Made by a program: the position numbers and the translations under genes. This document shows, in pieces, positions 1 to 64,000 of a DNA stretch of 64,000 nucleotides. How positions within the stretch are numbered: the stretch's first letter is position 1; each line of letters begins with the position of its first letter. The notes beneath the pieces were generated by a model that did no database searches, had not been told where the DNA came from, and saw only the letters and a list, made by a program, of their open reading frames with translations. The DNA is from an uncultured Pontibacter sp. (lineage in GTDB: Bacteria; Bacteroidota; Bacteroidia; Cytophagales; Hymenobacteraceae), in the NCBI RefSeq assembly GCF_947495565.1, contig NZ_CANLZM010000002.1, positions 372,001-436,000 of the forward strand, in the 5' to 3' direction.

Positions 1-1
1 C

Positions 2-100
2 GAATTAGGCTGGCGCGTGCACACAAAACTGGTAGGTGAAACCGGTATCACGATCATGCATAAAAACCTTGCTATAGCTTCCGATAAACCTGCCCGTTAA
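2..100 (+). CDS. C-terminal end of an unidentified protein (partial)
   Basis: An open frame runs from the window edge to a TAA at 98-100 and encodes the last 32 residues of a protein whose start lies outside the window. The tail is mixed and soluble-looking (it contains GWRVHTKLVGETG and ends DKPAR), with no membrane segment and no motif I can name. It could be a chance open frame, but the stop is followed by a 120-base spacer and then a convergent gene, which fits a real gene end. Family unknown. Confidence 0.5.
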   Translation, partial: ELGWRVHTKLVGETGITIMHKNLAIASDKPAR

Positions 101-222
101 TTTATTTTGATACTTCTTGCCTATCACTTCTAAGCATTACCTTGTAACAGGTGTAGTCTTTTCCAGCAGCAGCAAACTCCCCCCTAGCCCCTCACGGGAG
201 GCAGGGTCGTTCCCCTGCCGCT

Positions 223-822
223 TTACTTTTTCCTGCTAACCCACTTATTTCCCTTCACCCAAAACCGCCAAGGCAGCAAAGCATCTTCGCCTGCATAATC
301 TATACCGATGCGGGGGCCGGTGGCTATACTTTCGGTAGGCAGCGTCAGGCCTTTATCTTCTATCCAGATTGTGTCGCCGGTCAGGTTGGCACCGTAAAGC
401 TTTTTGTTGATGCCTAAGGCAATACTTAGCACGCCAGGGCCAGCAGTTAAATTTGGCTTTATACTTTGGAAGCCGCGCCGAAGCACCATTTCCTCTACTC
501 CCACCTCCGGCTCAATGGCCCGCACCAGTACGGCGTCAGCTTTGTCTTTCTCATTCGTGATGATGTTAAACAGGTGATAAATGCCGTACACTAAGTATAC
601 ATACGCCACGCCTCCCTCCTGATACATAATCTCGGTGCGTGTGGTGCGGCGGTTCAGGTGTGCATGGCAGGCTTTATCATTCTCTCCAGAATACGCTTCT
701 GTCTCCACAATCATGCCGCCGGTCAGCATTCCGTCTATAGAAGTATACAGGTACTTGCCTAGCAGCTCCTGCGCCAGATGCACCACATTGGGTCGGGTAT
801 AAAATTCTTTGGGAAGTTTCAA
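223..822 (-). CDS. mpg: DNA-3-methyladenine glycosylase, AAG/MPG family
   Basis: Base-excision repair glycosylase that flips out and removes alkylated purines such as 3-methyladenine. The 199 residues match the usual length of bacterial AAG-type enzymes. The hallmark segment IVETEAYSG lies at residues 38-46; by comparison with human AAG, E42 would be the catalytic general base and Y44 and H53 the residues stacking on the flipped base. The later YVYLVYGIYHLFNI segment is also typical. The ATG at 822 starts directly with the conserved N-terminal part, so the start is secure. It is transcribed divergently from the B12 uptake locus and appears to be monocistronic. It has no similarity to AlkA or Tag glycosylases. 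Confidence 0.93.
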   Translation of the reverse strand: MKLPKEFYTRPNVVHLAQELLGKYLYTSIDGMLTGGMIVETEAYSGENDKACHAHLNRRTTRTEIMYQEGGVAYVYLVYGIYHLFNIITNEKDKADAVLVRAIEPEVGVEEMVLRRGFQSIKPNLTAGPGVLSIALGINKKLYGANLTGDTIWIEDKGLTLPTESIATGPRIGIDYAGEDALLPWRFWVKGNKWVSRKK

Positions 823-903
823 GTTTCCTTATTTGTTATCAGTTAATCGTTATCGTGTCTACGCACATCCTACCGCTCTCTCCTAATTCCTGACTAATAA
901 TTC

Positions 904-931
904 TTAATTCGTAATTATTAATTCGTAATTT
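904..931 (+). repeat. Tandem 14-bp repeat in the btuB promoter region
   Basis: TTAATTCGTAATT(A/T) occurs twice head to tail (904-917 and 918-931) directly upstream of the cobalamin riboswitch. The end of the second copy reads TAATTTCG (926-933), one base from the Bacteroidota -7 box TAnnTTTG, so the repeat may carry the promoter of the riboswitch transcript. The promoter role is inferred. Confidence 0.5.
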
Positions 932-942
932 CGCCCCCAGAT

Positions 943-5626: not shown

Positions 5627-5924
5627 AGTACAGGGCGTTTGTGTGGTAGTGTAGAAGGGTAAACCCCTCAGTAGCAGTTGTATTTCAGTATTCAAATATA
5701 AATGCCCGAATTGTAAATAGCAAATATTTAATATTAATTATATTTTAAGTGTAATAATATTTTCTTCCAGGTTGATAAACATACAGGTAATGTAAGCTTC
5801 AGATGAACCCGCATCCCTGCCTGGGCTGTTGCATAGGCGGCGGCTCTTAAAGTCTGCGCCATTATCTGTACTTTTGTGCAGTGGCCTTGCTGCCGCCTAT
5901 ATATACTTTAAGCTGAATTATACT

Positions 5925-8132
5925 TTGGAGAAGAAGCCTACTATACTGCTCATTACGCCACCGCTCACACAATTAAACACTCCCTATCCTGCCACAGCCT
6001 ACCTCAAAGGTTTTTTGAAAAGCCGCGGCTACAGCGTTACACAGGCCGATTTAGGCATTGAACTGGTGCTGCGGATGTTCTCACGCAAAGGCCTTCAGCG
6101 TATTTTTGATGCCGTGGAGCAAGGCAACTACGAGCTTTCTGACAACAGCCTGCGCATCCTGCACCTGAAGCGCGACTACCTCAATACCATTGAGCCCGTC
6201 ATCCGGTTTCTGCAGAACAAAGACCACACACTGGCGCAGCAGATCAGCTACAGTCGCTTTCTGCCCGAGGCCTCGCGCTTTGATCAGGTAGAGGATATCG
6301 ACTGGGCTTTCGGTAGTATGGGCATCACTGACAGAGCCCGGTACCTGGCCACTTTATACTTGGAAGACCTCGGGGATTTGATTAAAGAAACCATATCGCC
6401 ATACTTTGCCTTCAGCCGCTACGCTGATAAACTGGCCATGTCAGCCACCTCGTTCGACCCGCTGGAGGAGGCGCTGCAGGAGGAGCCGAGCCTGATAGAT
6501 TTGATGTTGTTGGAGCTGCTGGAGGAGCACCTACAAAAAGCACAGCCAGATGTGGTGGGCTTTTCCATACCTTTTCCGGGCAACTTATATGGCGGCCTCC
6601 GGATGGCGAAATACATCAAAACACATTCTCCAAGTATAAAAACAGCTATGGGAGGCGGCTACCCGAACACCGAGCTGCGCAGTTTGCGTGAGCCGCGCCT
6701 GTTTAAGTACATAGATTTTGTAACGCTGGATGACGGCGAAGGCCCTTGGCTAAAGCTGCTGGAGCACCTGCAGGGCCAGCGGGAGGCGGAGCAGCTGCAG
6801 CGCACTTTTATGCTTGCCCATGGCGAGGTAAAGTATATAAATGGCAGCACAGATGCTGACATTCCGCACACGGAGGTAGGCACGCCCGACTATAGCGACC
6901 TGAAACTGCCTGATTATCTCTCGGTGATTGATGTGATAAACCCGATGCACCGCCTCTGGAGCGATGGCCGCTGGAACAAACTTACCATTGCCCACGGCTG
7001 CTACTGGAAGCGCTGCTCCTTCTGCGACATCACTCTGGATTATATAAACCGCTACGATGTGGCACCGGCCACTTTACTGGTAGACCGCATTGAGCAGATA
7101 ATAGCCCAAACCGGCCAGACTGGATTCCATTTTGTAGACGAAGCCGCTCCTCCTGCCCCACTCCGCGACATGGCTATTGAGCTGATTCGCCGAGGTGTGA
7201 AAATCAGTTGGTGGGGCAACATCCGTTTTGAGAAAACCTTTACGCCGGACCTTTGCCGCCTACTGGCCGCTTCAGGCTGCATTGCTGTGTCGGGTGGTTT
7301 GGAAGTGGCGTCAGATAGGCTGCTGCAGCTCATGGCCAAGGGTGTAAGTATAGCCCAGGTGGCCCGCGTTACCGACAGTTTTACCCAGGCCGGTATTATG
7401 GTGCACGCCTACCTCATGTATGGCTTCCCGACACAAACCGCCCAGGAGACAATAGATTCGTTGGAGGTGGTGCGGCAGCTGTTTCTGAATAACGTGATCC
7501 AATCAGGTTACTGGCACCGTTTCAGCATGACGGCGCACAGCCCAGTGGGCAAGGAGCCGGAGAAGTATGGCGTAGTAAAGGTTGGCCCTCTAGAAGGCGA
7601 CTTTGCAAATAACGACCTGTGGCACGAAGACCCGAAAGGCACCGACCATAGTTTGTTTGGCGAAGGGCTGGCCAAGGCGCTCTATAATTACATGCACGGC
7701 ATCGGCCTGGAGGAGAAACTCTCGTTCTGGTTTGATTTTAAAGTGCCGCGCACCACAGAGAAACCTAACTCGATTGCCGAGGCTATCTCTGCCCCGCACC
7801 GCCCCGACGGCTCCCGCCCTAATGCGCGCGTGCTCTGGCTGGGCAACACCCCGGCCATCGATTTTACTATAATTGCCCAGAAAGGCCAGACCATTGAGCG
7901 CTGCCTGCTCACATTCTTTGAGAAAGGCGAGGACTTTGAGGTAAAAACTACCGCTATTATTGGTCAGTGGCTGTTTGATGTGCTGCAGAAAATTACGCCA
8001 GATAACCCGGAAGCTGTTACGCTGAAGCAGCTGGAGGCGAGTTTTCCGACGGAGGCGCACCTAAACTTTGCTGAGTTTCTGAGTTCGCCGAGCTGGTTTG
8101 AGCTAAGGGAGAAAGGACTGTTGTTGCTGTAA
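5925..8132 (+). CDS. B12-binding domain radical SAM protein
   Basis: About 735 residues. The N-terminal part (about 1-260, from KPTILLITPPLTQLNTPYPA) is a Rossmann-like B12-binding domain of the kind that binds cobalamin in class B radical SAM enzymes. The radical SAM core follows, with its iron-sulfur Cys at C359, C364 and C367 in HGCYWKRCSFCD. This spacing is CX4CX2C instead of the usual CX3CX2C. The core continues with HFVDEAAPP and the SGGLEVASDRLL region. The C-terminal 170 residues are not assigned. Reaction and substrate are unknown. The frame is open upstream to TTG 5829, but that extension is a basic-hydrophobic segment unlike the family, so I place the start at TTG 5925. The B12 uptake genes nearby fit a cobalamin-dependent enzyme. 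Confidence 0.85.
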   Translation: MEKKPTILLITPPLTQLNTPYPATAYLKGFLKSRGYSVTQADLGIELVLRMFSRKGLQRIFDAVEQGNYELSDNSLRILHLKRDYLNTIEPVIRFLQNKDHTLAQQISYSRFLPEASRFDQVEDIDWAFGSMGITDRARYLATLYLEDLGDLIKETISPYFAFSRYADKLAMSATSFDPLEEALQEEPSLIDLMLLELLEEHLQKAQPDVVGFSIPFPGNLYGGLRMAKYIKTHSPSIKTAMGGGYPNTELRSLREPRLFKYIDFVTLDDGEGPWLKLLEHLQGQREAEQLQRTFMLAHGEVKYINGSTDADIPHTEVGTPDYSDLKLPDYLSVIDVINPMHRLWSDGRWNKLTIAHGCYWKRCSFCDITLDYINRYDVAPATLLVDRIEQIIAQTGQTGFHFVDEAAPPAPLRDMAIELIRRGVKISWWGNIRFEKTFTPDLCRLLAASGCIAVSGGLEVASDRLLQLMAKGVSIAQVARVTDSFTQAGIMVHAYLMYGFPTQTAQETIDSLEVVRQLFLNNVIQSGYWHRFSMTAHSPVGKEPEKYGVVKVGPLEGDFANNDLWHEDPKGTDHSLFGEGLAKALYNYMHGIGLEEKLSFWFDFKVPRTTEKPNSIAEAISAPHRPDGSRPNARVLWLGNTPAIDFTIIAQKGQTIERCLLTFFEKGEDFEVKTTAIIGQWLFDVLQKITPDNPEAVTLKQLEASFPTEAHLNFAEFLSSPSWFELREKGLLLL

Positions 8133-8174
8133 AGTATAAACCCGAAGCCTTTCCAGGCTTCGGGTTTATACTTT
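8131..8174. terminator. Bidirectional terminator
   Basis: A perfect 20-bp inverted repeat (8131-8150 and 8155-8174) has a 4-base loop TTCC and lies between converging genes. Its arms contain the window-wide heptamer as AAGTATA and TATACTT. Confidence 0.88.
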
Positions 8175-8178
8175 ATAC

Positions 8179-9099
8179 TTACTTGCCAGAGTTTGCCTGA
8201 GGCACTTTGTATTCAATGCCAAATCTTTTCATGTAATCCGCCAGGGGTTCCAATCCCATTTCCTCCCGGCGCTTGTCTACATTGGCTTCGTCTTCTATAG
8301 TATGAAGTTCGTACTGCCCCGTCTCATTGTTCATCTTTAGCTGACTACCATAAAGTTGAGGCTGGCCGTTGTTCATGCGCACCCTGTCCTCCATCAGCGC
8401 CACCTGGCTTTTTGCGGCCTCGCCTTTGTCTGCTGCCTCTCGCAACATGGGCAGGTATTTTTCCATTGTTTCTTTATCTGAGTGCTGGATAACAAGAAAG
8501 GCAGCCGAGCTAGCTTCTGACCCTACCAGACTTTTACCAGGCCATCCGTGCTCCTCAAGTATGGCAACCACCGCTTTTTTGTTCTCTAAATCTATTGTTC
8601 GCATCTCCTTCCACAGCGCCTGCATTTCCGGCGAGTCTGGACTGTACTTCTCCTGAGCAGGGCCGATCTTTCTCCTTATCCCTTGGTCAGTTTCATAAAT
8701 TTGTTCTAGCTGCGCTTTTAACGGCTTGTTATAGTTGGCCTCAAGTACAGCCACTTTCTTCTCCAGGTCTTGAACCAATGCGTCCCACCTTTTATCTCCG
8801 TGGAGGCTGTTCAGATCAGTGTCTTGCTTTAGATGGCTTAAATTAATGTAGCCTTTATCTACCGCTTGTTCTAAGTTGGCAAAAGCCTTGTTTTTGTTTC
8901 CGGCCAAAGCCCAGGAGCAGGCAGCATTGTAGTAATCCGTAGTACTGCCTTTACCTTTTGCAAAAGCTTTCTCATACATTTCGCCAGAGGCTTTGTACTC
9001 TTCTGCATCATACTTGGCACTAGCCTCGCCAATACTTTGGGCAGATCCGGCTACAGCCATACTGGCAATTAAAAGCGCAGTTAAGAAAGTTGTCTTCAT
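8179..9099 (-). CDS. Secreted TPR-like protein with DUF6624 domain
   Basis: 306 residues. A signal peptide (MKTTFLTALLIASMAVAGSA) precedes TPR-like helices (about 25-110, with YYNAACSWALAGNKNKAFANL) and a C-terminal DUF6624 domain (about 125-280). The domain shows the family's sequence run: DQGIRRKIG, then GWPGKSLVGSEAS, LVIQHSD, and MEDRVRMNNGQPQLYGSQ. The conserved Asp, Gln-His and Asp-Arg positions look like an enzymatic site, but the domain's activity is not known. The protein probably sits in the periplasm. It is monocistronic. Confidence 0.8.
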   Translation of the reverse strand: MKTTFLTALLIASMAVAGSAQSIGEASAKYDAEEYKASGEMYEKAFAKGKGSTTDYYNAACSWALAGNKNKAFANLEQAVDKGYINLSHLKQDTDLNSLHGDKRWDALVQDLEKKVAVLEANYNKPLKAQLEQIYETDQGIRRKIGPAQEKYSPDSPEMQALWKEMRTIDLENKKAVVAILEEHGWPGKSLVGSEASSAAFLVIQHSDKETMEKYLPMLREAADKGEAAKSQVALMEDRVRMNNGQPQLYGSQLKMNNETGQYELHTIEDEANVDKRREEMGLEPLADYMKRFGIEYKVPQANSGK

Positions 9100-9393
9100 A
9101 GCATTATACTTTTGATGAGTTTGAATATAGCAATTTCATACTTTAAAAACTAAAAGTATAGTTGCTAAATTTTTCAACTTTTATACCTGTAGCTTTTGCC
9201 TGCCTTTAAGAAAACACGATGCCTCTTTTAAAATGAATGGGCGCCGCTGCGGCAGTAAGGACATACAAAATTCTTCAAAAATAATTTCCCCTTGATGCAA
9301 CCTCAGCGTCTGTTTCGGCATCTTATTATCGGAAGCCGGCACTACAACTGCCAGCTTTCAGACTACTACCACTATCTACTACTTAGTAAAACT

Positions 9394-9468
9394 ATGAAGA
9401 GAACCTGGCCCTGCTCCTGCCTCCTTGTGAGGCAGCGGCAGGAAAACCAGGAACAGCAAAGTACCTAA
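9394..9468 (+). CDS. Possible 24-aa peptide or small RNA upstream of a terminator
   Basis: The 660-base space between the DUF6624 gene and uvrB has no long gene. It contains a 24-codon frame (MKRTWPCSC... ending TAA 9466-9468) followed 20 bases later by a strong terminator that has no other plus-strand gene to serve. That arrangement suggests either a tiny peptide or a small RNA covering about 9300-9530. No convincing promoter was found. Confidence 0.25.
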   Translation: MKRTWPCSCLLVRQRQENQEQQST

Positions 9469-9487
9469 TACCCTATTTCTACATAAA

Positions 9488-9529
9488 AGACAGGCACCTC
9501 AGCAAAAGCCAAGGTGCCTGTCTTGTTTT
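9488..9529 (+). terminator. Terminator of an unidentified plus-strand transcript
   Basis: AAGACAGGCACCT and AGGTGCCTGTCTT form a 13-bp stem followed by GTTTTTAG. The nearest upstream plus-strand feature is the 24-aa frame at 9394. Confidence 0.75.
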
Positions 9530-9717
9530 TAGGCGGTTTTGTATCTATACAGGACTCTGTGGCATCTGCCCATATGTGAGTTTGTGGCCTTGCTGCCCGT
9601 GGAGGTATCTGCAGTAGCAGCCGGTTTGCCAAAGTTACAGGCTGTGATATGTATAAAAACTTTTCAGCATGAGGTTGTAGTTTAAATATGAATGAGCAGA
9701 TATGTGTAAATTAACGA

Positions 9718-9750
9718 AAAGGCAGCTACTTTACAGTAACTGCCTTTTTA
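9718..9750 (-). terminator. Terminator after uvrB
   Basis: AAAGGCAGCTACT and AGTAACTGCCTTT pair with one mismatch around a TTAC loop, 11 bases beyond the uvrB stop codon. Confidence 0.75.
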
Positions 9751-9760
9751 TTTGAGCAAG

Positions 9761-11788
9761 TTAATCTCTCTTTGTTTTTAATAGCTTCCGAAGATCGGCC
9801 AGTTCATCCCTATACTTGGCGGCCTGCAGGAAGTCGAGGTCTTTGGCGGCGGCTTCCATCTGCTTCTCTGTTTTCTTGATCAGCTTCTCCAGCTCGTCGC
9901 GCTTCATGGTCTGGATAATCGGCTCGGCAGCGATAGACACTTCTTCAGGCCCGGCATACATCTTCACTTCCTTCTTCTTGGAATCAGCAACAGAGGTCTG
10001 CCCATGGATTTCGTCACTCGTTTTAAGGATAGTACGCGGGGTAATGCCGTGCTCTTCGTTATAGGCCATCTGCGTGGCGCGGCGGCGGTTTGTCTCGTCA
10101 ATGGCGCGCTGCATGGAACCGGTCATACGGTCGGCGTACATAATTACCTTGCCCTTTTCGTTACGTGCGGCGCGGCCCATGGTCTGTATCAGGGAGCGCT
10201 GGTCGCGCAGGAAGCCTTCTTTATCGGCGTCAAGTATAGCTACCAGGCTTACCTCCGGCAAATCGAGCCCCTCCCGCAGCAGGTTCACCCCGATCAGGAC
10301 ATCAATTATACCTAAGCGCAATTCACGCAGTATCTCCACCCTGTCCAGCGATTTTACTTCGGAGTGCAGGTACTTTACTTTAATGTTGAGTCGCTCCAGG
10401 TACTTGGTCAGTTCCTCAGACATACGCTTTGTCAGGGTAGTTACCAGTACACGTGCTCCTTCTTTTACGCGCTCATCTATTTCATCCAGCAGGTCGTCTA
10501 CCTGGTTTGTACTTGGCCTCACCTCAATTACCGGATCCAGCAAGCCTGTTGGGCGGATGATCTGCTCTACTATTACACCCTCTGATTTCTGTATCTCATA
10601 ATCGCCGGGCGTGGCGCTCACAAATACTACCTGGTGCATCAGGCTCTCGAATTCATTAAACGTGAGTGGCCGGTTATCCATGGCGGCAGGCAAACGGAAG
10701 CCATACTCCACCAAGGCCACTTTCCTGGATCTGTCGCCGCCCCACATGGCCCGCACCTGCGGCACCGTTACGTGGCTCTCGTCTATCACCATCATAAAAT
10801 CATCCGGGAAATAATCGAGCAGACAGAAAGGACGCGCACCTGGGGAGCGCCGGTCGAAGTAGCGGGAGTAGTTCTCGATGCCGGAGCAGTAACCAAGCTC
10901 GCGTATCATTTCCAGGTCAAACTCTGTTCGCTCTTTAATGCGCTTCGCCTCTGCCGGCCGGTCTTCTTTCAGGAAATAATCGTGCTGCGCCACCATGTCA
11001 TACTGTATCTCCGAGATAGCCTGCTGCAGCGTATCCTTACCCGTCACAAAGAGGTTGGCCGGGTAAAGTGTCACGGCTTTCTCGTCTGAGAGTTTTTTGC
11101 CGGATTGCGGGTCTATGCGGTGTATCTGCTCCAACTCATCGCCGAAGAAGTATAAACGGTAGGCGAAGTCTGCGTAAGCCGGATAAATATCTACTGTATC
11201 GCCTTTTACCCGGAATGTTCCACGTGTGAACTCGGCTTCGGTGCGGCTGTAAAGTATCTGCACAAAAGTATAAAGCAGGTTATTGCGGCTGTAGCGCTGC
11301 CCCGGCGCCAAGTGGATCACATTTTTGCCAAACTCCTCCGGGTTACCGATACCATAGATACATGACACTGATGCCACCACAATTACATCGCGACGCCCTG
11401 AGAGCAGCGCCGATGTGGTATGCAGGCGCAGTTTCTCGATTTCCTCGTTAATTTGCAGGTCTTTTTCGATGAACACATCCGAAGAGGCGATGTAGGCTTC
11501 GGGCTGGTAATAGTCGTAGTAGGAGATAAAGTACTCCACTGCGTTTTCCGGAAAAAACTGCTTAAATTCACCGTACAGCTGCGCGGCAAGTGTTTTATTG
11601 TGGCAAAGCACCAATGTAGGCTTGCCTGTATTTTTGATAACGTTAGCCATGGTAAACGTTTTGCCGGTGCCTGTAGCTCCCAGCAAAACCTGTACAGGCT
11701 CTCCTTTATTTATGCCTTCTGTAAGTTGTGCAATTGCCTTGGGCTGGTCGCCGGTCGGCTGAAACTCTGATGTCAGTTTGAAATCCAT
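9761..11788 (-). CDS. uvrB: Excinuclease ABC subunit B
   Basis: 675-residue UvrB, the damage-verifying helicase-like subunit of nucleotide excision repair that receives DNA from UvrA and recruits UvrC. Walker A is GATGTGKT (residues 38-45). The beta-hairpin region that clamps DNA contains YDYYQPEAYI, the DEAD-type box is VIDESH, and the helicase C-terminal part has QTMGRAARN. The C-terminal UVR motif (about 635-670, LEKLIKKTEKQMEAAAKDLDF) binds UvrC. Length and start (MDFKLTSEFQPTGDQP) are standard. It stands alone with its own terminator. Confidence 0.97.
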   Translation of the reverse strand: MDFKLTSEFQPTGDQPKAIAQLTEGINKGEPVQVLLGATGTGKTFTMANVIKNTGKPTLVLCHNKTLAAQLYGEFKQFFPENAVEYFISYYDYYQPEAYIASSDVFIEKDLQINEEIEKLRLHTTSALLSGRRDVIVVASVSCIYGIGNPEEFGKNVIHLAPGQRYSRNNLLYTFVQILYSRTEAEFTRGTFRVKGDTVDIYPAYADFAYRLYFFGDELEQIHRIDPQSGKKLSDEKAVTLYPANLFVTGKDTLQQAISEIQYDMVAQHDYFLKEDRPAEAKRIKERTEFDLEMIRELGYCSGIENYSRYFDRRSPGARPFCLLDYFPDDFMMVIDESHVTVPQVRAMWGGDRSRKVALVEYGFRLPAAMDNRPLTFNEFESLMHQVVFVSATPGDYEIQKSEGVIVEQIIRPTGLLDPVIEVRPSTNQVDDLLDEIDERVKEGARVLVTTLTKRMSEELTKYLERLNIKVKYLHSEVKSLDRVEILRELRLGIIDVLIGVNLLREGLDLPEVSLVAILDADKEGFLRDQRSLIQTMGRAARNEKGKVIMYADRMTGSMQRAIDETNRRRATQMAYNEEHGITPRTILKTSDEIHGQTSVADSKKKEVKMYAGPEEVSIAAEPIIQTMKRDELEKLIKKTEKQMEAAAKDLDFLQAAKYRDELADLRKLLKTKRD

Positions 11789-11909
11789 TCGCTTAATTTA
11801 CGGATGAGTAAAGATAAACTATAACATGTAAAATACATGGTAAGTTTGCCTTCTGGCCAATTTATACCTGCTGTACGGTGGCCGTTTTAAAAAGCTAAAA
11901 ACAAAGAAA

Positions 11910-11934
11910 AAGCCTGCTGCAGAACAACAGGCTT
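11910..11934 (-). terminator. Hairpin upstream of uvrB, possible terminator
   Basis: AAGCCTGCTG and CAACAGGCTT pair with one mismatch over a short loop. An A-rich run before it gives a U-tract on the minus strand. It may stop residual transcription from the kelch operon before it enters uvrB. Confidence 0.45.
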
Positions 11935-12075
11935 AGTGCTTATATTACAGAAAATCTTTTACGTGTTGGGTGCTCTGATTACAGGCAATCCCAGGCTGCC
12001 GCATTCAGATCACACCACAGGTAAAACCTGTTAAAGCATAACACTTTTTAAGCGCTGTTGGTTACTTGTAAGTAT

Positions 12076-12107
12076 AAAAAAAACAGCCCGGCTGAAAGGC
12101 CAGGCTG
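12076..12107 (-). terminator. Terminator of the DUF4270-kelch operon
   Basis: CAGCCCGGC and GCCAGGCTG (12084-12092 and 12099-12107) form the stem. The eight A at 12076-12083 give a U-tract on the minus strand, 27 bases after the kelch gene stop. Confidence 0.8.
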
Positions 12108-12133
12108 CTCTGATACTAGGTTTATTTAACCCG

Positions 12134-13138
12134 CTATTCGTTCACTATAGTTGGGTTTAGCTGCCAAATGTCGTCATAGTGCAGGGAGCCGCTGTTGCCG
12201 AGGCCAACATAGCCGTAGTCGCCGATGCCGAAGCCTATTGCTCCCACTCTTATGCCTCCTTTAAAACTGCCAAGCTGTGTCCAGGTGTCGCTGGCCGGGT
12301 CAAATTTCCAGACGTCATTTAACGATGCGCCGTTGGTGCCGCCCACTACATAGCCATTGTTTTGGATAGAAAAAGTAGCCGCATACGTGCGAGGCGCTGG
12401 ATAATCTTCATCCGGGCGCTGCTCATTTGTCAGCGTTTTCAGTGTTCTCCATTGGCTTGTTGCCGGATCAAACTCCAGCAGGTCCGTCTGGTATACATTG
12501 TTGTTCTGGCCACCGCCTACATAGCCTTTGCCGTTTACGGTGAAGGCGAAACCATTCAGACGCTTAGCTCCTATCAAGCCTACTTGCTCTGTCCAGGTGG
12601 CAGTGGCAGGATCATACTTCCAGAAATCTTTCTGATAATTACCGTCAAAGCCGGCACCTATGTAACCTGCGTTGCTGAACGACATGGCGATAGCACCGTA
12701 ACGGGCAGTGGCCGGAAAATCTGCTATCTGTGTCCAGGTGTTGGCTGCAGGGTCATACTCGTAAAAATCGTTCAGGTAGCCAGTGCCGTCATAGCCGGTC
12801 CCAATGTAGCCTTTGCCGTTGGCGGAAAAGCCTACTGCCGCACTACGGGCCGCTCCCGGAAAGTCTGCTTTTTTTACCCAGTTGTTTGTGGCGGCATCAA
12901 ACATCCAAAAGTCGTTCAGGCGTTTGGAGCCGTCGTGGCCGGTACCCACGTATGCCTTTCCGTCTATTACAAATGATACTGAACTGCTGCGGGCTACTCC
13001 GGCGAAGTCTGACTGTTTCTGCCACTCTCCCAGCAGTACCTCATCATCACTGTCGCTTTCGCAGGAAGACAGTATGCCCACCGATAGCAGCAAAGCCATC
13101 AGCATAAACAGGCGTGTGTTTTTAAAAGGGATTTTCAT
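12134..13138 (-). CDS. Kelch-repeat surface lipoprotein
   Basis: 334 residues. The signal peptide ends in lipobox LSSC (Cys26), followed by ESDSDDE, an acidic run consistent with surface export. The mature protein consists of about six kelch repeats of some 50 residues with the pattern GKAYVGTG-D--LNDFWMFDAATNNWVKKADFPG-ARS, which predicts a beta-propeller. The start is 9 bases after the DUF4270 gene, so they are co-transcribed. This pairing of DUF4270 and kelch lipoproteins recurs in Cytophagales. The ligand is unknown. Confidence 0.88.
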   Translation of the reverse strand: MKIPFKNTRLFMLMALLLSVGILSSCESDSDDEVLLGEWQKQSDFAGVARSSSVSFVIDGKAYVGTGHDGSKRLNDFWMFDAATNNWVKKADFPGAARSAAVGFSANGKGYIGTGYDGTGYLNDFYEYDPAANTWTQIADFPATARYGAIAMSFSNAGYIGAGFDGNYQKDFWKYDPATATWTEQVGLIGAKRLNGFAFTVNGKGYVGGGQNNNVYQTDLLEFDPATSQWRTLKTLTNEQRPDEDYPAPRTYAATFSIQNNGYVVGGTNGASLNDVWKFDPASDTWTQLGSFKGGIRVGAIGFGIGDYGYVGLGNSGSLHYDDIWQLNPTIVNE

Positions 13139-13147
13139 AGTTGTAGA

Positions 13148-14542
13148 TTATTGGATAGTAGTATAATAGATGCGGAGACTGATATTCTTTATGTTTTTGT
13201 TCTGCGCTCCCACCACCAAGCGACTGGCACCGTTTCTAAAATCTGTCTCAGCCGGCGCCAAGTATAAAGGCTGATCTATGCGACCCTCTCTTGTCAACTT
13301 ATCGATCAGGTACTCGGTAATAGAGAATTCATAACGTCCGTCTGTGGCTGTTTCGCTAGATTTGATAAAGCTTGAGGTAAGAGGAATTCCATCTGTGTTA
13401 TACTCTATAACCAGCGGTGAGTAAAGTACATTGCTGGTGCTTGTTTCGTATAAGCCAACCGAAGACGGCACCGGGAAAGGATATGTGGTAGTTGTGCCTC
13501 TGAATGGCTCTACCACTAGGGTTACTTTGTTGATGAACTCCGGCTTCAGTTTTTCCTTCAGTTTCTCCAGGTAAGGTATTTCCAGCTTAATCACCAGGCC
13601 TGTTCCTGACTGCGCCACGCTTATGTCGTTGGTAGCAGTTGCTGGCAGCTCTCCACTATCTTTTAGCCCTTGCAGCGGTGAACCTGTAAAGTCGCCTTCT
13701 ACCTTATTGTATTGCAGACTTGAGTTGATCAGCGGGAAATCATAGCTTTTCACTGTTCTGGTGCCGCCAGATGCAGCAGGCTCAGAATAATAAAGGCGCA
13801 CCATAGCACCAGCTGTAGAGAAACCTAGCACGGCGTTGCCGGCTGTAGCTTCAATACCCAGGCCTTTGAAGTATGCGACAAAGTTCTGGGTATCTTTTAT
13901 TTTATCGTCGCTCGCTTTTTTCAGGTCGAACCACTGCTGCCCCAGCGCATTGCTGAGGTCAATAGCCAGTGTGTCTTTTCTAACCGGCCTTGGCGCAAAC
14001 GTATACGTTCCTACTGCTTCAGGCTTAACAGTAGCCTTACTTACATTGTAAAATCCTGAATTCTGATAAAAGAATGAATACGGCTCCTCGTTTGGCATAG
14101 TAGGCGGCAAACCGCGCGCTGTCAGCGTAGAGCTAAGCTCATTTACACGAAGCGTTATGTTTTGTGTAGTATCGCCGTAGTAGTAACCTGATGTTGGCAA
14201 GATCAGCTTCAGCGAATCGTAAGTAGCGCCCTCTGCAGGAGCAGCCAGTGAGCTACCTGGGCCTACCTGAAAATAAGTAGAAGCGTGCAGCATTCCGGTT
14301 TGCGGCGTAGTATACTGGCCTACCAGCATGTTGCTTCTACCGGAGTTAGCCACCGAATCCACCATCACGGTAGATACATTAATAGTAAGCGTGTCGGTAA
14401 ACGTGCCGGACACGTTATCCTCTACCAACTCCAGCCCCAGCTCATTCGGGTCCTCACAAGAGGCCAGCATGAACACGGTGCCTAAGCAGCAAAGTAGTTT
14501 AAGAAATCTTTTTCTGGAAGTTGATTTTGTTGGGAATGACAT
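13148..14542 (-). CDS. DUF4270 family lipoprotein
   Basis: 464 residues. A basic N-terminus (MSFPTKSTSRKRFLKLL) leads into a signal with lipobox LASC (Cys29), followed by EDPNELGLELVED, which is the typical DUF4270 opening. The mature part is beta-rich, with repeated blocks like TYDSLKLILPTSGYYYGDT and VRLYYSE and a C-terminal NISLRIYYT strand. DUF4270 proteins are surface or outer-membrane lipoproteins of unknown role. It is the first gene of an operon with the kelch lipoprotein. A -7 box lies 140 bases upstream. Confidence 0.88.
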   Translation of the reverse strand: MSFPTKSTSRKRFLKLLCCLGTVFMLASCEDPNELGLELVEDNVSGTFTDTLTINVSTVMVDSVANSGRSNMLVGQYTTPQTGMLHASTYFQVGPGSSLAAPAEGATYDSLKLILPTSGYYYGDTTQNITLRVNELSSTLTARGLPPTMPNEEPYSFFYQNSGFYNVSKATVKPEAVGTYTFAPRPVRKDTLAIDLSNALGQQWFDLKKASDDKIKDTQNFVAYFKGLGIEATAGNAVLGFSTAGAMVRLYYSEPAASGGTRTVKSYDFPLINSSLQYNKVEGDFTGSPLQGLKDSGELPATATNDISVAQSGTGLVIKLEIPYLEKLKEKLKPEFINKVTLVVEPFRGTTTTYPFPVPSSVGLYETSTSNVLYSPLVIEYNTDGIPLTSSFIKSSETATDGRYEFSITEYLIDKLTREGRIDQPLYLAPAETDFRNGASRLVVGAQNKNIKNISLRIYYTTIQ

Positions 14543-29790: not shown

Positions 29791-29792
29791 AC

Positions 29793-30593: not shown

Positions 30594-30644
30594 AATGAGC
30601 TGTCATTTTGTTAATCAACTTTTCAGTTTATGGTGCTTAAGGTG

Positions 30645-30668
30645 TGTCTCGTCCTGAAGTAAGTTGAC
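30645..30668. repeat. IS element inverted repeat, orfB-side end
   Basis: TGTCTCGTCCTGAAGTAAGT followed by TGAC. It pairs with the orfA-side end at 20 of 24 positions. Confidence 0.88.
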
Positions 30669-30683
30669 GATTTTGAGACGAAG

Positions 30684-50016: not shown

Positions 50017-50019
50017 AGT

Positions 50020-56007: not shown

Positions 56008-58590
56008 TCAGAACCTGCCGCTTACTACTACTTTCTCCTTGTGCTCGCTTTTTTCTCCGTTCAGCCCAAATAACTCTATGTAGAAGAGGTAGTAACCGAT
56101 ATTGGCCTTTGTACCGTCTTCGCGGAGGCCGTCCCAGCGGAAAAAGCCGTTTGCTTCCAGCAACTCGTTTCTGACTAATTTGCGTATTTCGCGGCCCTGC
56201 GCATCGTAAACGGTTATGTTGGCAACGAGGCCGGTTTTATCGGTGTGGTAGTTAATGGTGGCATAGTCTTCATAACCGTCGCCGTCCGGAGAAAATGCTT
56301 TTGGAGCAACCTCAAACACCTGCTGCGCCGCCACCCCCACCTGCGACTGCGAGTTTCTGTACCCTGGCGTAGCAAAAACCGTGGTGGCCGCCGAGTGGAA
56401 ATTACCGGCTATACTTGGCCCCTCCAGCCGCAGCCGCTCCAAAGAAACGCCATTTACATCGTCTATCAACTCAAAGTGCATGTCCTCATCATAACTAAAT
56501 TTGTCTGCCACCACACCATCTGGCTGCAGCACCACCACTGTTCCGGCATCATCGGGGTAGCTGGGTAGGCTGCTCATCTTTATAAAAGTCTCCTGCCGGG
56601 CTATCGGGTAATTCTGCTTGATATTGTCCGGGTCGGAGGTGAGGACAACGTATTGCCCCGTTGCCAGCACATAATTGGCTGTGGTTATACTTCGGATGTT
56701 GCTGATGGAATCGCTGGAGGTGTTGGCTAGTTTCCAGTCTTTCAGGTTGAGGTATTTTTCGCTTCGGTTTACCAGCTCTACAAAGTCTGCGCCGCCGGTG
56801 CGCGGGTTAAACAGCACCTCGTTAATTACCACATCGCCGGGTGCAGGCGCAGATGGCAGGGCAAAAGTATACGTTAAGGGTTGTGGATTGCTGTTGCCGC
56901 TGCAGTCTGTTATACTTGCGGCGCTTAAAGTATACTCCTGCCGCTCCTGCAGCTGGCCGTTAAGTATAAGTATGGCTTCTGTAAAAAGCGGTCCCTGCAC
57001 CTGCACGCTATTTATACTTATACTTGGGCTGATGCTGTAGTTTGCCATACTGGCGGCCTGTATGCTATCGAGGCGCTCGTTAAAGCGGAGCAAAATCCTG
57101 TCCGGGGCAATGGCAGTGGCTTCTGTAAGTATGGGCGGCGTATTATCTGGGTTGGCAGCGGCTACAGCGTTTGGCTGGGCAGGCGTTCCGCCGCGCGGGT
57201 CTACAGAGGCTGTCCAGTTGTCCGTACCTGCGCAGGGGTTGTTTACGTCAATCATCTCCAGACTCCAGCCACCGTCTTTTTTGCTGCTGTTTTTGTACCA
57301 GGCATCACTGTAATTTAGGGCGTAAATAAGTTTGCCATTAGGCTGGTGCAGCTGCAGCAGCTCGCCGCTGTTGTTCAGGCTCGGAAAGTTGCTGATGCCA
57401 ATTATTTTGCCGTATTCGCTAAAGTTTGCTACCTGGCTGTTAGGCACCACCACGGCATACTCCTGCGGCAGCAGTTGCACATCCGGGAAGGTGGCGATGG
57501 AGGTGGCATCGGAGTAGCGGATACCCTGCAGCTTCAGCACTTTGCTAGTAGGGTTGTAGAGCTCGATGTACTCCTGCGCCGGCAAGCCTACAGCCGGACT
57601 CTCATCGGCCATGATCTCGGTGATGAGCAGTTCGTTATAGTTGGGCAGCACGGCAGGCGGCGTAAAGGTAAAACTGCGCACAATTGGGTTTAGCTGGCTG
57701 TTACCGAAAAGATCCTGCACATTGGTTATACGTAACTCATTGCCGCCACTCCTGAAACTCTGGCTAAACACCAGCCGCACCCTATCCGGCTCCACCAGCT
57801 CGGCAATAAGCGGATTTATACTTCCGTTTAAAGTATAATTGCCGAGTGTTTGCGCCTGTTCCGGCTGCAGCGGCTCGTTAAACTGCAGCGTCAGTTCCTG
57901 CGGGTTTACAGTCAGCAGCTCCTGCAGCACCGGCGGCTGCGCATCTTGTATGCTGAAGTCATCGAAGTAGAATTTCTGGCTGTTGGCCGAGCTATACTTT
58001 AGCAACACGCCAAAATATGCTGAGCGGGTATAAGTGGCGTCGGTGGCAGTGCCTTGGCTCACGTAGTTTTGCCCAGTGCCGCTCAGGTCTATGCTGAGCT
58101 CCCACTCGTGGTTTATACTTCGGGTTACCCGCACGCGCACTAGGTTATTGCTGGTTGCCACAGTTTTGTCTTGTCCGTTGATGAGTATGGTGCCGCTTTT
58201 TCCGGAGTCCTTGCGGTAGAGGCTCACCTCGTCGGCGGTATTACCGATGCGCACAAAGTAGCCGCTGGTGTTTATACTTTTCAGGTCTTCGGAGTTCGAG
58301 ACAAGGTATACATCAGCGTAGTTGCTGGATGAGGTTGCCAGTTTCAGGTTAGCCCAGAACTCCCAAGTGGTGCCCACTGCTGCCTGCGAGGGCGTAACCA
58401 ATTGTAAAGTAGTACCCGTTACGGCCGGGCCGCTGCTCTGCAGCTGGCTCTGCGGATTAACAACAAAGCTTTGTGTATCGCCGGACCAAGCGGGGTTTTG
58501 GGTGAAGTTGCCGTCAGAGAAACTTTCGTTGAGTTGGCTTTGAGCCATGAACGGAACCAGCAGCAGAAGAAGGAGTAAAGTTTGTTTCAT
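56008..58590 (-). CDS. Secreted lamin-tail-domain protein with FlgD-like C-terminus
   Basis: 860 residues. Signal peptide (MKQTLLLLLLLVPFMAQS), a concanavalin-like N-terminal domain (to about 215), Ig-like domain, lamin tail domain 1 (about 320-480, with the typical GGWSLEMIDVNNPCAGTDNW and DPRGGTP), another Ig-like domain, lamin tail domain 2 (about 585-745), and a C-terminal FlgD-like Ig domain (FSPDGDGYEDYATINYHTD and RWDGLREDGTKANIGYYL). Such proteins are surface or secreted in Bacteroidota. The end resembles a gliding/T9SS-type sorting tail, but it is not the classical CTD. Role unknown. Confidence 0.86.
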   Translation of the reverse strand: MKQTLLLLLLLVPFMAQSQLNESFSDGNFTQNPAWSGDTQSFVVNPQSQLQSSGPAVTGTTLQLVTPSQAAVGTTWEFWANLKLATSSSNYADVYLVSNSEDLKSINTSGYFVRIGNTADEVSLYRKDSGKSGTILINGQDKTVATSNNLVRVRVTRSINHEWELSIDLSGTGQNYVSQGTATDATYTRSAYFGVLLKYSSANSQKFYFDDFSIQDAQPPVLQELLTVNPQELTLQFNEPLQPEQAQTLGNYTLNGSINPLIAELVEPDRVRLVFSQSFRSGGNELRITNVQDLFGNSQLNPIVRSFTFTPPAVLPNYNELLITEIMADESPAVGLPAQEYIELYNPTSKVLKLQGIRYSDATSIATFPDVQLLPQEYAVVVPNSQVANFSEYGKIIGISNFPSLNNSGELLQLHQPNGKLIYALNYSDAWYKNSSKKDGGWSLEMIDVNNPCAGTDNWTASVDPRGGTPAQPNAVAAANPDNTPPILTEATAIAPDRILLRFNERLDSIQAASMANYSISPSISINSVQVQGPLFTEAILILNGQLQERQEYTLSAASITDCSGNSNPQPLTYTFALPSAPAPGDVVINEVLFNPRTGGADFVELVNRSEKYLNLKDWKLANTSSDSISNIRSITTANYVLATGQYVVLTSDPDNIKQNYPIARQETFIKMSSLPSYPDDAGTVVVLQPDGVVADKFSYDEDMHFELIDDVNGVSLERLRLEGPSIAGNFHSAATTVFATPGYRNSQSQVGVAAQQVFEVAPKAFSPDGDGYEDYATINYHTDKTGLVANITVYDAQGREIRKLVRNELLEANGFFRWDGLREDGTKANIGYYLFYIELFGLNGEKSEHKEKVVVSGRF

Positions 58591-60145: not shown

Positions 60146-60721
60146 ATGGCTAAAAACCCATTTTATGTTTATGCTTTAAAAGACCCAAGATGTAAGCCTG
60201 CTAGGCCATTTTATATTGGTAAGGGTACGGGGAACAGAGCATGGGAACATCAGCTTAACATTGATGATTCTGAAAAAGGTCGGTTGATCAGTGATATCCA
60301 GAGTTCGGGTTATAAGGTGATTCACACTATCATTTCAGATGATTTAACAGAGGAGCAGGCTTTAAAAATAGAAGCTGAACTTATAGCTGCATTTGGAATT
60401 ATAAGTCAAGGAGGTTTGCTAACCAATAGAATTAAGCCAAACCCTGATAATATTTCTTCCAGAGTTAAATTAAATATTCCTGGTGGCTGCTATGAACGAG
60501 CCCAAATGGGTTTAAATCTATTAAAATCAGCTATAGTTGAGTTCGCCAAGGCCAACCCTGAAGGAATAAAGAACTCAGATGCTGCAAAGTATCTTGGTTT
60601 ACAGTCTGACTATGGTGGAGGATCCAAAGACTACTTAAGCTATAGCATTTTAGGTTTACTTATGAAAGAAGGTAAACTTGAACGTACAGGTAGGGGAAAA
60701 CACAAATCAATAACGGACTAA
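60146..60721 (+). CDS. GIY-YIG nuclease-like protein with C-terminal winged-helix-like domain
   Basis: 191 residues. The N-terminal domain (about 1-100) is GIY-YIG-like. The first motif is FYVYAL (YVY in place of GIY), the second PFYIGKGTGNRAWEH with the catalytic-type Arg, then Glu in QALKIEAELI and Asn in LLTNRIKP. This subtype resembles LEM-3-like GIY-YIG domains. The C-terminal 65 residues (LLKSAIVEFAKANPEGIKNS, then SYSILGLLMKEGKLERTGRG) look like a winged helix. It is AT-richer than its surroundings and lacks the window-wide heptamer, which suggests acquisition. REP-like hairpins flank it. Confidence 0.8.
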   Translation: MAKNPFYVYALKDPRCKPARPFYIGKGTGNRAWEHQLNIDDSEKGRLISDIQSSGYKVIHTIISDDLTEEQALKIEAELIAAFGIISQGGLLTNRIKPNPDNISSRVKLNIPGGCYERAQMGLNLLKSAIVEFAKANPEGIKNSDAAKYLGLQSDYGGGSKDYLSYSILGLLMKEGKLERTGRGKHKSITD

Positions 60722-61423: not shown

Positions 61424-61427
61424 ATAC

Positions 61428-61937
61428 TTATTCTGCGTCTCCTGCAGGGCACTTGTACTCCATCAGCAACCGGATATTTTCCACGCACTGCACAGGTATG
61501 AAAGTATAAATCTCCTGATCATCGTTGCAGTACTTAAAGCTGGCGAACTCTGAGCGGCTCTTCGGGTAAATCCATTTATCGCCCTCACAACCGTACACAA
61601 ACAGCGGAAAATCGTTGTAAGAGTAGTCCGTGTAAGATACTACTTCCTCGCCCTTTACAAACAGCAGGCGGCGGTAATTTTCCGGCACTTCATCTCCCTC
61701 CCACTTAAAACCAATCACATCGCTGATGGCTTTCTCGTCTTCGTTGGGCTGAAAATAATACATGATGTCCCAGTCAAACTCAGTCAGGCTAGCCATTTGT
61801 ACGGTTTTAAAACCACCGGCTCCGGTTTCTCCCTCTGTTACAGCGGCTTTCAGTTTCTCGTTCAGGGCAGTGTTGCTGCCATTGCAGCCAGCCAGCCAGA
61901 GCAGCGCCAGCAATGGCCAGATATATCGTTTCATCAA
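61428..61937 (-). CDS. Lipoprotein, unknown function
   Basis: 169 residues. The signal peptide ends in lipobox LAGC (Cys18). The mature protein has a soluble beta-rich part (FKTVQMASLTEFDWDIMYYF, LFVKGEEVVSYTDYSY) with Cys residues in YGCEGDKW, FKYCND, VQCVEN and EYKCPAG. The start could be ATG 61934 as well, since two Met codons lie in tandem. No family is recognised; it may be a periplasmic lipoprotein. Confidence 0.65.
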   Translation of the reverse strand: MMKRYIWPLLALLWLAGCNGSNTALNEKLKAAVTEGETGAGGFKTVQMASLTEFDWDIMYYFQPNEDEKAISDVIGFKWEGDEVPENYRRLLFVKGEEVVSYTDYSYNDFPLFVYGCEGDKWIYPKSRSEFASFKYCNDDQEIYTFIPVQCVENIRLLMEYKCPAGDAE

Positions 61938-62045
61938 ATCAATTGTACTTATACTTTATACAGCTTAATATACAGCTTTAGGCTATACCTTACAAACCCG
62001 AATGGCCTTAGCAATGCTAAAAAGCCAGCTGCCATACTTTGGTAG

Positions 62046-63119
62046 CTAGCGCTTGTAATCTTCCGCCAGCTCCTCCTCCCTCGACTGCCGCCCAAAAACT
62101 TTGGCCAGCCACTTAGGCAGAAAAACAGAACCCAGCACCAGGTACGGATAGTACGTGATCAATCGGTACAGCACCACTACCACGCTTGCAAAGCCTCCCA
62201 AAAACAACCCGAAGAAACTCGGGAAGGCCATTTCCACAATACCCGCCCCGCCCGGCGTAATAGCTATCAGCATCACAATCCAGAAGATAAGGTTGCGGGA
62301 AATGATCAGCAGGTGCTCGCTAAACGTTACGTCCACAAAGGCGGCGATAAGGCAGTTGAGCAAAAAGTAGCGGGCGCTCCAGACAAACATGGTAGAGAGT
62401 GTGGCGCGGGCCCAATAATTAAAATCCTTGCCCCTGAGCTGCTCTGATGCCCACACAATCTCGTTGCCATGCTGAAACGCGTTGACGCGCCACTTCCGCA
62501 GAAAACCGATAGAGGTTATCCGCAGCAACAGCCACTTGAAAGCGCGCGGACGCACGAACAGCGCATAAATCATCACGAAAGTATAAACCGCTATTAGCCC
62601 GTAGCTGATGTAAAACGCCGACTGCAGCTTGGCCACGTCCGACGGTTCGAGATTGAAAGTAGGGAAAACCTGCCCCTGCGAAAGCAAAAGGGCGATGGGC
62701 GCGGCCACAATAAAGAACATATTATCCAGCACGGCCGTCAGCATAACATAAGCCAGCGACTTACCCAGCGGTATGCCTTCTTTGTTTAGGATGATAGTGG
62801 CTACGGTAGTGCCTCCCACCACAGACGGCGTAACGGCTGAGGCAAACTCCCAAAGCATAATGACATCCAGGCTGTTGCGCCAAGTCAGAAATTTATCGGT
62901 AAGTGAGCGGATGCGGTACATATATCCTGCATCCCGGATCACCAGCACGACCAAAGCCGCTGCCAGCCACCAGACATTAGCCTGGGCTATGCCTTTCAAC
63001 TCGCTCAGCTTATCGTCTTTAACAAAAAGCCAGGCAGTGGCGGCTAAGCCCAGCAGCACTGGAATCAGCACCTTTACCGGGCTAAAGCTCTTAAGTATAG
63101 TTTTTTTGTTCTGATCCAT
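62046..63119 (-). CDS. Lysylphosphatidylglycerol synthase/YbhN-like membrane protein (UPF0104)
   Basis: 357 residues with about eight helices. The family signature is MLWEFASAVTPSVVGGTTVATIILNKEGIPLGKSLAYVM, with a later MLIAITPGGAGIVEMAF. YbhN/AglD-like proteins share the flippase domain of MprF, and many act in lipid or polyprenol-sugar transport. It lacks the cytoplasmic synthase half of MprF. Substrate unknown. Confidence 0.87.
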   Translation of the reverse strand: MDQNKKTILKSFSPVKVLIPVLLGLAATAWLFVKDDKLSELKGIAQANVWWLAAALVVLVIRDAGYMYRIRSLTDKFLTWRNSLDVIMLWEFASAVTPSVVGGTTVATIILNKEGIPLGKSLAYVMLTAVLDNMFFIVAAPIALLLSQGQVFPTFNLEPSDVAKLQSAFYISYGLIAVYTFVMIYALFVRPRAFKWLLLRITSIGFLRKWRVNAFQHGNEIVWASEQLRGKDFNYWARATLSTMFVWSARYFLLNCLIAAFVDVTFSEHLLIISRNLIFWIVMLIAITPGGAGIVEMAFPSFFGLFLGGFASVVVVLYRLITYYPYLVLGSVFLPKWLAKVFGRQSREEELAEDYKR

Positions 63120-63213
63120 CTAAAGGGTGGTGATGCACCCTGCGGAGGGTACACGTAAAGCTATGAACAATTTCAGGAACTACGCCTATAATCTAAACGA
63201 GTTGATCATGCAG

Positions 63214-63984
63214 CTACTCTACCAGCAGCTGTGTGACCTGGGTGGCCTGTCCCTCTGCCTCTAAAATAAAAAAGTCGTTGAAACCGTCGCCCACTTCCAA
63301 CCCGATCAGGTTGAGCTGCAGCATGTCCAGAATTGCCAAGAAGTTAAAGATCATACCGATCTTATCCGGAAACTCCTCAATCAGTTTAGAGAAAGCCAGG
63401 CGGTTGCGCTGCTGCACCATGTTTAGGATAATATCGCGCTGCCCGTCTATGGTGTACGGATACTGGATAACCGTATGCTTTGGCTTGTTCTGCTCTTGCT
63501 CAAAGCGGGTCATTACCTTCTCAAATACACGCATGATTTTGTAAAGGCTTAGGTCCTGCAGCTCGTACTCGAAGTGGTTGGCATTGGCTATCTGCTGCAG
63601 TTCGTGGTGTATGTTACCGCGGCTCTCCTGCGCCAGGCGCTGGTCTTCCATTAACGACAGGTCCGGCACAGCGCTTTTATACTTTTTATACTCCAGCAGG
63701 TGCTGCACCAGCTCCTCGCGCGGGTCTATCTCGTTGCCCTCCTCGTCCTTTTCCACACGCGGCAGCAGCATTTTAGCCTTAATGCGCATCAAAGTGGCGG
63801 CGGTAAGTATAAAATCGCTGGCTACCTCTATGTTCAGCTGCTCCAGCTCCTGCAGGTAGCCCACAAACTCAGTTGTAATCCGGAAAATCGGAATGTCATG
63901 TATGTCAAGCTCATCACGCTCAATAAAGAAAAGCAGCAGGTCAAACGGACCCTCAAACAACGGTAATCTTATCTCGAAACTCAC
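63214..63984 (-). CDS. scpA: Segregation and condensation protein A
   Basis: 256 residues. It begins FEIRLPLFEGPFDLLLFFIERDELDI, the conserved ScpA start that contacts SMC, and the middle has LTAATLMRIKAKMLLPR. The C-terminal winged helix reads IGMIFNFLAILDMLQLNLIGLEV. It bridges the SMC heads and ScpB in chromosome condensation. scpB and smc are not in the window. ATG at 63984 is only 16 bases from the window end, so the start is complete but upstream context is missing. Confidence 0.95.
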   Translation of the reverse strand: MSFEIRLPLFEGPFDLLLFFIERDELDIHDIPIFRITTEFVGYLQELEQLNIEVASDFILTAATLMRIKAKMLLPRVEKDEEGNEIDPREELVQHLLEYKKYKSAVPDLSLMEDQRLAQESRGNIHHELQQIANANHFEYELQDLSLYKIMRVFEKVMTRFEQEQNKPKHTVIQYPYTIDGQRDIILNMVQQRNRLAFSKLIEEFPDKIGMIFNFLAILDMLQLNLIGLEVGDGFNDFFILEAEGQATQVTQLLVE

Positions 63985-64000
63985 CTTATCAACTCATTTA

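Follow-up and report, generated by a model that had tools for sequence, protein, structure and literature searches.

In the literature consulted here, DNA-uptake words are described for Neisseriaceae and Pasteurellaceae (PMC3630211, PMC1939737). The DNA uptake sequences (DUS) of Neisseriaceae are non-palindromic words of 10-12 letters that stand in thousands of copies, such as 5,918 in 2.4 Mb, and that fall into dialects following the tree around a fixed core, CTG, with two dialects occurring together in the genome of Simonsiella (PMC3630211). The uptake signal sequence (USS) of Pasteurellaceae, AAGTGCGGT, is often paired in terminators (PMC5217627); it too is a non-palindromic word in thousands of copies, and uptake bias plus mutation has been argued to suffice for words of this type without any other function (PMC1939737). 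The highly iterated palindrome of cyanobacteria, HIP1, is abundant within genes, has lineage variants and has been lost in some lineages; HIP1 and its sporadic alternates pair with matching methyltransferases, and Elhai has proposed a repair drive as their cause (PMC4390886). Here we describe a further variant of this known kind of iterated word with dialects: the heptamer AAGTATA (TATACTT on the opposite strand), which we analyzed in a 64,000-nt stretch of DNA from an uncultured Pontibacter sp. (contig NZ_CANLZM010000002.1, positions 372,001 to 436,000; hereafter the window) and then across its genus and order.

The window contains 134 copies of the word (64 AAGTATA and 70 TATACTT), against 7.8 expected from its dinucleotide content, a figure close to the chance expectation of about 8 given in the initial annotation, which had proposed the word as a lineage-specific repeat. 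AAGTATA is the most enriched 7-mer of the window and the three that follow it overlap it; the 105 arrangements of its letters have a median count of 9, and those ranking just below AAGTATA (92, 78, 65, and 45) are shifted, overlapping forms, so that we do not see an equal excess of many unrelated AT-rich 7-mers. The excess extends over the 4,524,119-bp source genome, in which 3,975 copies of one orientation and 4,120 of the other sum to 8,095, or one copy per 559 bp, compared with 217 and 219 (436) for the reversed word. The density of words here is one per 330-560 bp.

This excess is not caused by codon use. In 30 synonymous-codon shuffles of 237 sampled open reading frames (ORFs) from the window's genome (G000), we obtained 59.7 +- 7.2 copies against 337 observed, and AAGTATA was again the most extreme of all 7-mers; shuffles of a genome using AACTATA (G407) and of one using AGGTATA (G336) gave 100.3 +- 6.0 against 732 and 6.3 +- 2.2 against 82. 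The word was found in all six reading frames, with only the stop-making frame empty in G407, and its occurrence within genes in every frame rules out a promoter site. It was denser outside than inside ORFs, at 3.2 versus 1.38 per kb in G000, 7.92 versus 2.19 in G407, and 3.3 versus 1.54 in AGGTATA genomes. Position 8 is preferentially A or G, and the eight-letter words reach 33-44 fold over the composition expectation, whereas most single-letter variants of positions 1-6 remain below 4 fold. Exceptions among these variants are AGCTATAG (9.3 fold, in the AACTATA group) and CGGTATAG and GGGTATAG (5.7 and 6.9 fold, in the AGGTATA group), and changing position 7 from A to G leaves 7.4, 3.3, and 11.9 fold. 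Flanking bases more than three away from the word are near background, which speaks against a dispersed repeat.

The word has dialects, here abbreviated by their first three letters. Whole-genome counts over 50 genomes of the genus assigned 20 to AAGTATA (AAG; 4,114 to 11,818 copies per genome), 12 to AGGTATA (AGG; 5,748 to 9,303), 6 mainly to AACTATA (AAC; 8,118 to 13,168), one to AAG and AAC together (G362, with 9,116 and 6,094 copies, respectively), and one to nTATATA. The remaining 10 were classed as having none or relics, a label set by the analyst for genomes in which all three words fall below 6 times the control, and their highest value was 5.7 fold, for AGGTATA in G417. TATA is common to every spelling. 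The genome with the nTATATA words, G140, carries TTATATA (54 versus 1.8) and ATATATA (63 versus 1.5) in 40 kb, and its label and that of G417 are based on 40 and 12 kb, respectively. Borders between dialects are not sharp: AGGTATA is also raised in some AAG genomes, up to 6.7 fold in G411, and two genomes classed as AAC are mixed, namely G306 (8,118 AAC and 7,552 AAG) and G202 (11,674 and 5,110).

We compared these classes with a tree built from the DNA of uvrB, which was present in all 50 genomes, with the words masked. In the window this gene lies at 9761-11788 on the minus strand and its product has Pfam UvrB domains, with 92-95% identity to those of ten named Pontibacter loci, 86% to Rufibacter, and 81-82% to Hymenobacter. 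In this tree, which leaves 15 of 50 inner branches unresolved, the 12 AGG genomes form one clade (Shimodaira-Hasegawa-like approximate likelihood ratio test support of 99), and five of the six AAC genomes join G362 in another (92), with G306 standing apart; the AAG genomes are spread around both clades. Nine of the word-poor genomes form three clades of three (99, 87, and 92). The remaining one, G417, pairs with G140 as its sister (96), and this pair joins one of these three clades (96). Word-poor genomes measure 4.9-6.5 Mb and that of the window 4.5 Mb.

Dialects replace one another at the same sites. We compared word sites with 7-mers of similar composition across 13 gene families around uvrB (16,863 columns, 36-61 word sites per comparison), dropping clusters with fewer than three genomes in either group and 7-mers present in fewer than two genomes and treating sites as independent. 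Within a dialect, words were conserved above controls (AAG, 0.319 versus 0.219; AGG, 0.589 versus 0.364), figures that, for both words and controls, include self-comparisons of genomes. Between dialects, 60 AAG sites examined in AGG genomes were unchanged in 2.2% of cases (controls, 9.3%) and read AGG in 15.5% (controls, 4.6%), and AGG sites in AAG genomes were unchanged in 8.0% (controls, 13.8%) and respelled AAG in 13.1% (controls, 4.1%). The switch between AAG and AAC, which requires a transversion, behaved similarly: AAG sites in AAC genomes were unchanged in 11.3% (controls, 16.8%) and respelled in 6.2% (controls, 0.7%), and in the reverse direction these values were 5.0% (13.4%) and 6.1% (0.5%). 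Respelling into the other dialect at a word site was thus 3 to 12 times as frequent as at control sites, and none of 5,000 control draws reached the word value in any of the four directions. Loss of the old word was not significant in every direction (control draws that matched the word value or fell below it numbered 1, 114, 268, and 1 of 5,000), and the sites with any respelling are few (13 of 60, 14 of 36, 7 of 54, and 9 of 40). Toward word-poor clades, words were kept less than controls in most comparisons, with ratios from 0.05 to 0.92, although these pairwise figures are not independent, a given site entering them through many genome pairs. A reader that changes its specificity, followed by conversion of near-matches, explains the respelling better than inheritance alone.

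By analogy with the described systems, this word works most like the DUS of Neisseriaceae, and we give about an even chance to the reading in which NNNTATA(R) serves DNA uptake as a word of self-recognition, kept by biased uptake and recombination. Under this reading, a putative reader on the cell surface or within the periplasm would favor word-bearing DNA, the fragments taken up would recombine into the chromosome, and molecular drive would spread word alleles until copies stood in their thousands wherever the code permits. If the specificity of the reader shifted at positions 1-3 (AAG, AAC, or AGG), the old words would become near-matches and be respelled in place; if specificity were lost, the words would decay, and the word-poor genomes would be those lacking it. 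It is from the patterns above that we infer the reader, its action in DNA uptake, and the drive. The parallel with DUS covers a short, non-palindromic word in genome-wide excess and both orientations, a conserved core (TATA in place of CTG), dialects that follow the tree, genomes with two dialects (G306, G362, and G202), and a density of the same order, with 13,168 copies in a 4.34-Mb contig. Unlike DUS, the Pontibacter word has 7-8 letters and belongs to another phylum.

Counterparts of known uptake genes are present. Transformation of Riemerella anatipestifer, another member of Bacteroidota, requires ComEC, DprA, ComF, and RecA together with four further proteins, among them a periplasmic helix-hairpin-helix (HhH) protein (PMC8459023). 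We found a ComEC domain in all 50 Pontibacter genomes; its gene is broken in two of them, G336 and G403, and in G415 its frame is shorter. We also found a ComEA-like protein of 304-346 aa with two HhH_3 domains that, among the matches listed, is open in 49 of 50 genomes and broken in G403; the start of this protein in G407 was read as a membrane segment. Both comEC and the HhH gene (C1:2078296-2078647) are broken in G403, which has 5,476 words compared with 8,844 and 10,614 in its tree neighbors G237 and G315, a difference that the uptake reading predicts. ComEC also diverges faster than its neighbors (for example, 52% between G000 and G407 versus 74-95%, from 20 ComEC loci), and no gene in the ComEC neighborhoods separated word-bearing from word-poor in the three of these 20 genomes that were tabulated. 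The HhH_3 proteins were considered as readers of the dialect and rejected, as they occur in word-bearing and word-poor genomes alike. Riemerella also depends on a surface protein with DUF5689, which is essential there (PMC8459023), and we found counterparts (PF18942) in just 22 of the 50 Pontibacter genomes: short frames (413-450 aa) in 12 genomes, each of them word-bearing, and long frames (1,099-1,299 aa) in 10, five of which are word-poor. In the window's genome, the one locus examined, this gene lies between genes read as SusD-like and calcineurin-like.

Several observations weigh against the uptake reading. The comEC gene of G336 is broken by stops and a change of frame, and yet 9,303 AGG words remain, so that this genome would need to have lost comEC recently to fit. 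Conversely, all ten word-poor genomes keep comEC and the HhH gene intact, and these genes therefore do not explain the presence or absence of words. DUF5689 is rejected as a general reader by its absence from 28 of 50 genomes, most of them word-bearing, and no reader gene was identified among the candidates examined. In a search of the 50 genomes with PF00437, no full-length pilus ATPase appeared among the candidates scored (at most 31 per genome); partial matches of about 50-60 of 370 positions were present in 50 of 50 genomes, 3 of them over the cut-off. DUS and USS systems are marked by a type IV pilus whose minor pilin reads the word; such a pilus was thus not apparent from PF00437, the pilins themselves not having been searched for. 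There was likewise no sign of a ComP-type reader, and DNA would probably cross the outer membrane by a route other than a standard type IV pilus. Close inverted pairs showed no enrichment at stem-loop spacing, so the word lacks the hairpin pairs of Haemophilus and the pairing in terminators seen for USS, and a terminator element was rejected on this ground; a special place in terminator arms, where the initial annotation had seen the word, found no support in these pairs, the only aspect of terminators looked at. Given that neither of these two features, inverted pairs in terminators and a type IV pilus, was found, we do not class the word as a member of DUS. The same annotation had inferred loss of the word from foreign DNA, which we do not see: rare ORFs, present in 0-4 other genomes, have 2.02 words per kb and core ORFs 1.77, in a small sample of mechanically called ORFs from one syntenic region. 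Finally, we found no sign of natural competence in Pontibacter, although experimental evidence was not sought; the text of a second Riemerella paper makes no mention of an uptake word (PMC8383284). Searches of open-access literature, with most subscription journals outside them, gave no report of uptake sequences in Pontibacter, Bacteroidetes, or Bacteroidota or of these words.

The main rival to uptake, which we consider unlikely, is a drive of the HIP1 kind, in which a specific methyltransferase and mismatch repair would make and keep the word and dialects would follow changes of specificity, with no uptake involved. The density of the Pontibacter word is of the HIP1 order, respelling in place is expected under such a drive as well, and cyanobacteria supply the precedent of methyltransferases that match their words. 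HIP words are palindromic, however, whereas AAGTATA differs from its complement TATACTT: overlapping palindromic doubles are enriched (AACTATAGTT, 128 pairs among 1,493 copies in G407; AAGTATACTT, 11 among 532 in G000) but account for a minority of the copies. In addition, HIP alternates are sporadic, whereas the Pontibacter dialects form clades. Because the word is non-palindromic and its dialects keep a fixed core, the uptake-word model fits better than HIP1. An origin as a side effect of codon use, of biased mutation, or of a dispersed repeat is disfavored already and in our view highly improbable; the AT-richness of the word and the high counts of 7-mers that overlap it would fit, but in three genomes the excess over codon shuffles is still 5.6- to 13-fold, and the use of six frames (bar the AAC stop frame), the near-background flanks, and the low enrichment of most variants all speak against it.

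A site for a chromosome protein, such as a nucleoid organizer, a segregation or repair factor, or a site of the Chi or KOPS (FtsK-orienting polar sequence) type, with a dense array that is selected and co-evolves with its protein, is quite unlikely in our judgment. Conservation within dialects and coordinated respelling would fit any specific binding protein, and the higher density of words outside ORFs would fit as well. KOPS have a strong orientation, as do most known Chi sites, whereas in 400 kb spread over one closed chromosome contig of 4.34 Mb, with the leading strand assigned by GC skew, we counted 712 copies with the leading strand and 636 against it (52.8% of 1,348; p 0.04), a polarity so slight that KOPS and Chi were rejected and that it counts in favor of the uptake reading. 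Copies are also clumped rather than evenly spaced (coefficient of variation of gaps, 1.19 to 1.46), with gaps below 50 bases making up 17% in G000 versus 9% expected, and some same-strand pairs 6-8 bases apart are enriched. Systems of this kind are not known to use nearly as many sites as the up to 13,168 copies found here. Separately, same-strand pairs of AACTATA exactly 20 bases apart turned up 30x in the G407 samples, possibly a small repeat family.

The initial annotation had likened the word to HIP1 or uptake words of a lineage, and this holds insofar as the word survives the codon shuffle, is strong in one genus, and varies in spelling between sister clades; it is not a word of Hymenobacteraceae as a whole. 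We drew 390 genomes of the order, 18 within the genus and 372 outside, and none of those outside exceeded 2.6 times the reversed-word control for AAGTATA. Other lineages may have words of their own. Among 80 named loci, 72 were longer than 12 kb, and of the 62 of these from outside Pontibacter, nine had a candidate word, as called by eye. These were AAGTACC in Rhabdobacter roseus (L117; 77 versus 8.2) and Persicitalea (27 versus 6.0), AAACCGC and AAACCGT in two Larkinella loci (L120, L127), AGCTAGG in Hymenobacter crusticola and CTACCCC in two other Hymenobacter (L092, L095, L096), and CTATAGC and AAGTATA in Ohtaekwangia and one metagenome-assembled genome; AAACCGC, AAACCGT, AGCTAGG, CTACCCC, and CTATAGC come from single 20-kb samples. 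Genome counts of AAGTACC were 15,982 versus 1,323 in Rhabdobacter, 5,106 versus 1,371 in Persicitalea, and 3,554 versus 1,201 in Telluribacter, with no excess in the remaining six of nine genomes counted; across the 390-genome draw none came near the Rhabdobacter count, and large ratios stem from a rare control word, so that it was the named loci that supplied the strong bearers. The Rhabdobacter word prefers the form (A)AAGTACC(C/T), uses six frames, and is denser outside than inside ORFs (6.93 versus 2.83 per kb), whereas the words of Persicitalea and L. rosea are not denser outside. The Hymenobacter words occupy fewer frames and may be owed in part to codons. We hold only tentatively, somewhat short of an even chance, that sequence-specific DNA uptake operates in several Cytophagales lineages, namely Pontibacter and Rhabdobacter with its relatives and perhaps also Larkinella and some Hymenobacter, each with its own dialect and a pilus-free receptor, such that words would form a species barrier and be respelled genome-wide when the receptor changed.

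Within the window, exact counts place AAGTATA on the plus strand with starts at 593, 741, 1368, 1706, 6632, 6831, 7346, 8132, 9154, 10232, 11148, 11266, 12070, 13260, 15139, 15518, 19655, 21539, 23033, 23549, 23827, 26929, 28761, 30133, 30331, 35126, 36873, 38804, 39037, 40520, 41609, 42914, 42924, 42976, 43015, 43375, 43433, 44565, 45324, 45371, 45947, 46176, 46634, 48849, 48865, 48871, 51634, 52820, 52837, 53841, 54440, 56865, 56928, 56962, 57831, 59647, 59924, 60080, 60941, 61376, 61502, 62579, 63093, and 63805. TATACTT on the plus strand, that is, the word on the minus strand, starts at 325, 460, 2792, 2798, 2881, 2951, 2989, 5099, 5161, 5419, 5902, 5919, 6355, 8167, 8174, 9105, 9811, 14881, 15036, 16840, 18649, 19254, 20275, 20289, 20877, 23228, 27326, 27333, 27429, 29004, 30136, 36488, 36494, 37023, 39171, 39711, 40193, 40253, 40948, 42024, 43378, 45327, 45413, 45650, 45908, 47714, 47731, 47836, 51446, 51958, 52886, 53049, 53057, 54620, 55866, 56410, 56686, 56911, 57013, 57019, 57817, 57993, 58114, 58273, 58813, 60887, 60944, 61423, 61950, and 63678.

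These positions agree with the local counts reported earlier. All 11 copies listed for the first 3.2 kb (325-2995, on both strands) lie exactly where they had been placed, with no further copy there, and the five copies assigned to 56881-57060 form a cluster at 56911-57025, within an ORF on the minus strand (56008-58590) that encodes lamin-tail domains and a C-terminal signal of the type IX secretion system. The susC-susD region had been credited with a single copy, and the stretch 31748-36134 indeed has one, at 35126; the longest copy-free stretch between two copies, 4,795 bases (30331-35126), covers the SusD-like gene together with the greater part of the SusC-like one. The GIY-YIG gene at 60146-60721 on the plus strand (PF22945, E 6.1e-10) is free of the word, as had been stated. 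An IS3 element, also said to lack it, was not found among the 50 of 94 window ORFs of at least 100 aa that were scanned with Pfam. The window also contains two adjoining PAP2 phosphatase genes at 28987-30593 (267 and 266 aa).

With 50 sequenced species, three or more spellings, genomes that mix them, and several cases of loss, the genus offers a natural experiment on how such words originate, switch, and decay. If the uptake reading is true, it points to a sequence-reading receptor in Bacteroidota that was not previously known; if instead a methylase or a chromosome protein is responsible, the word is relevant to the unsettled question of HIP1. In both cases, the dialects would serve as a guide for designing DNA with which to transform these bacteria.

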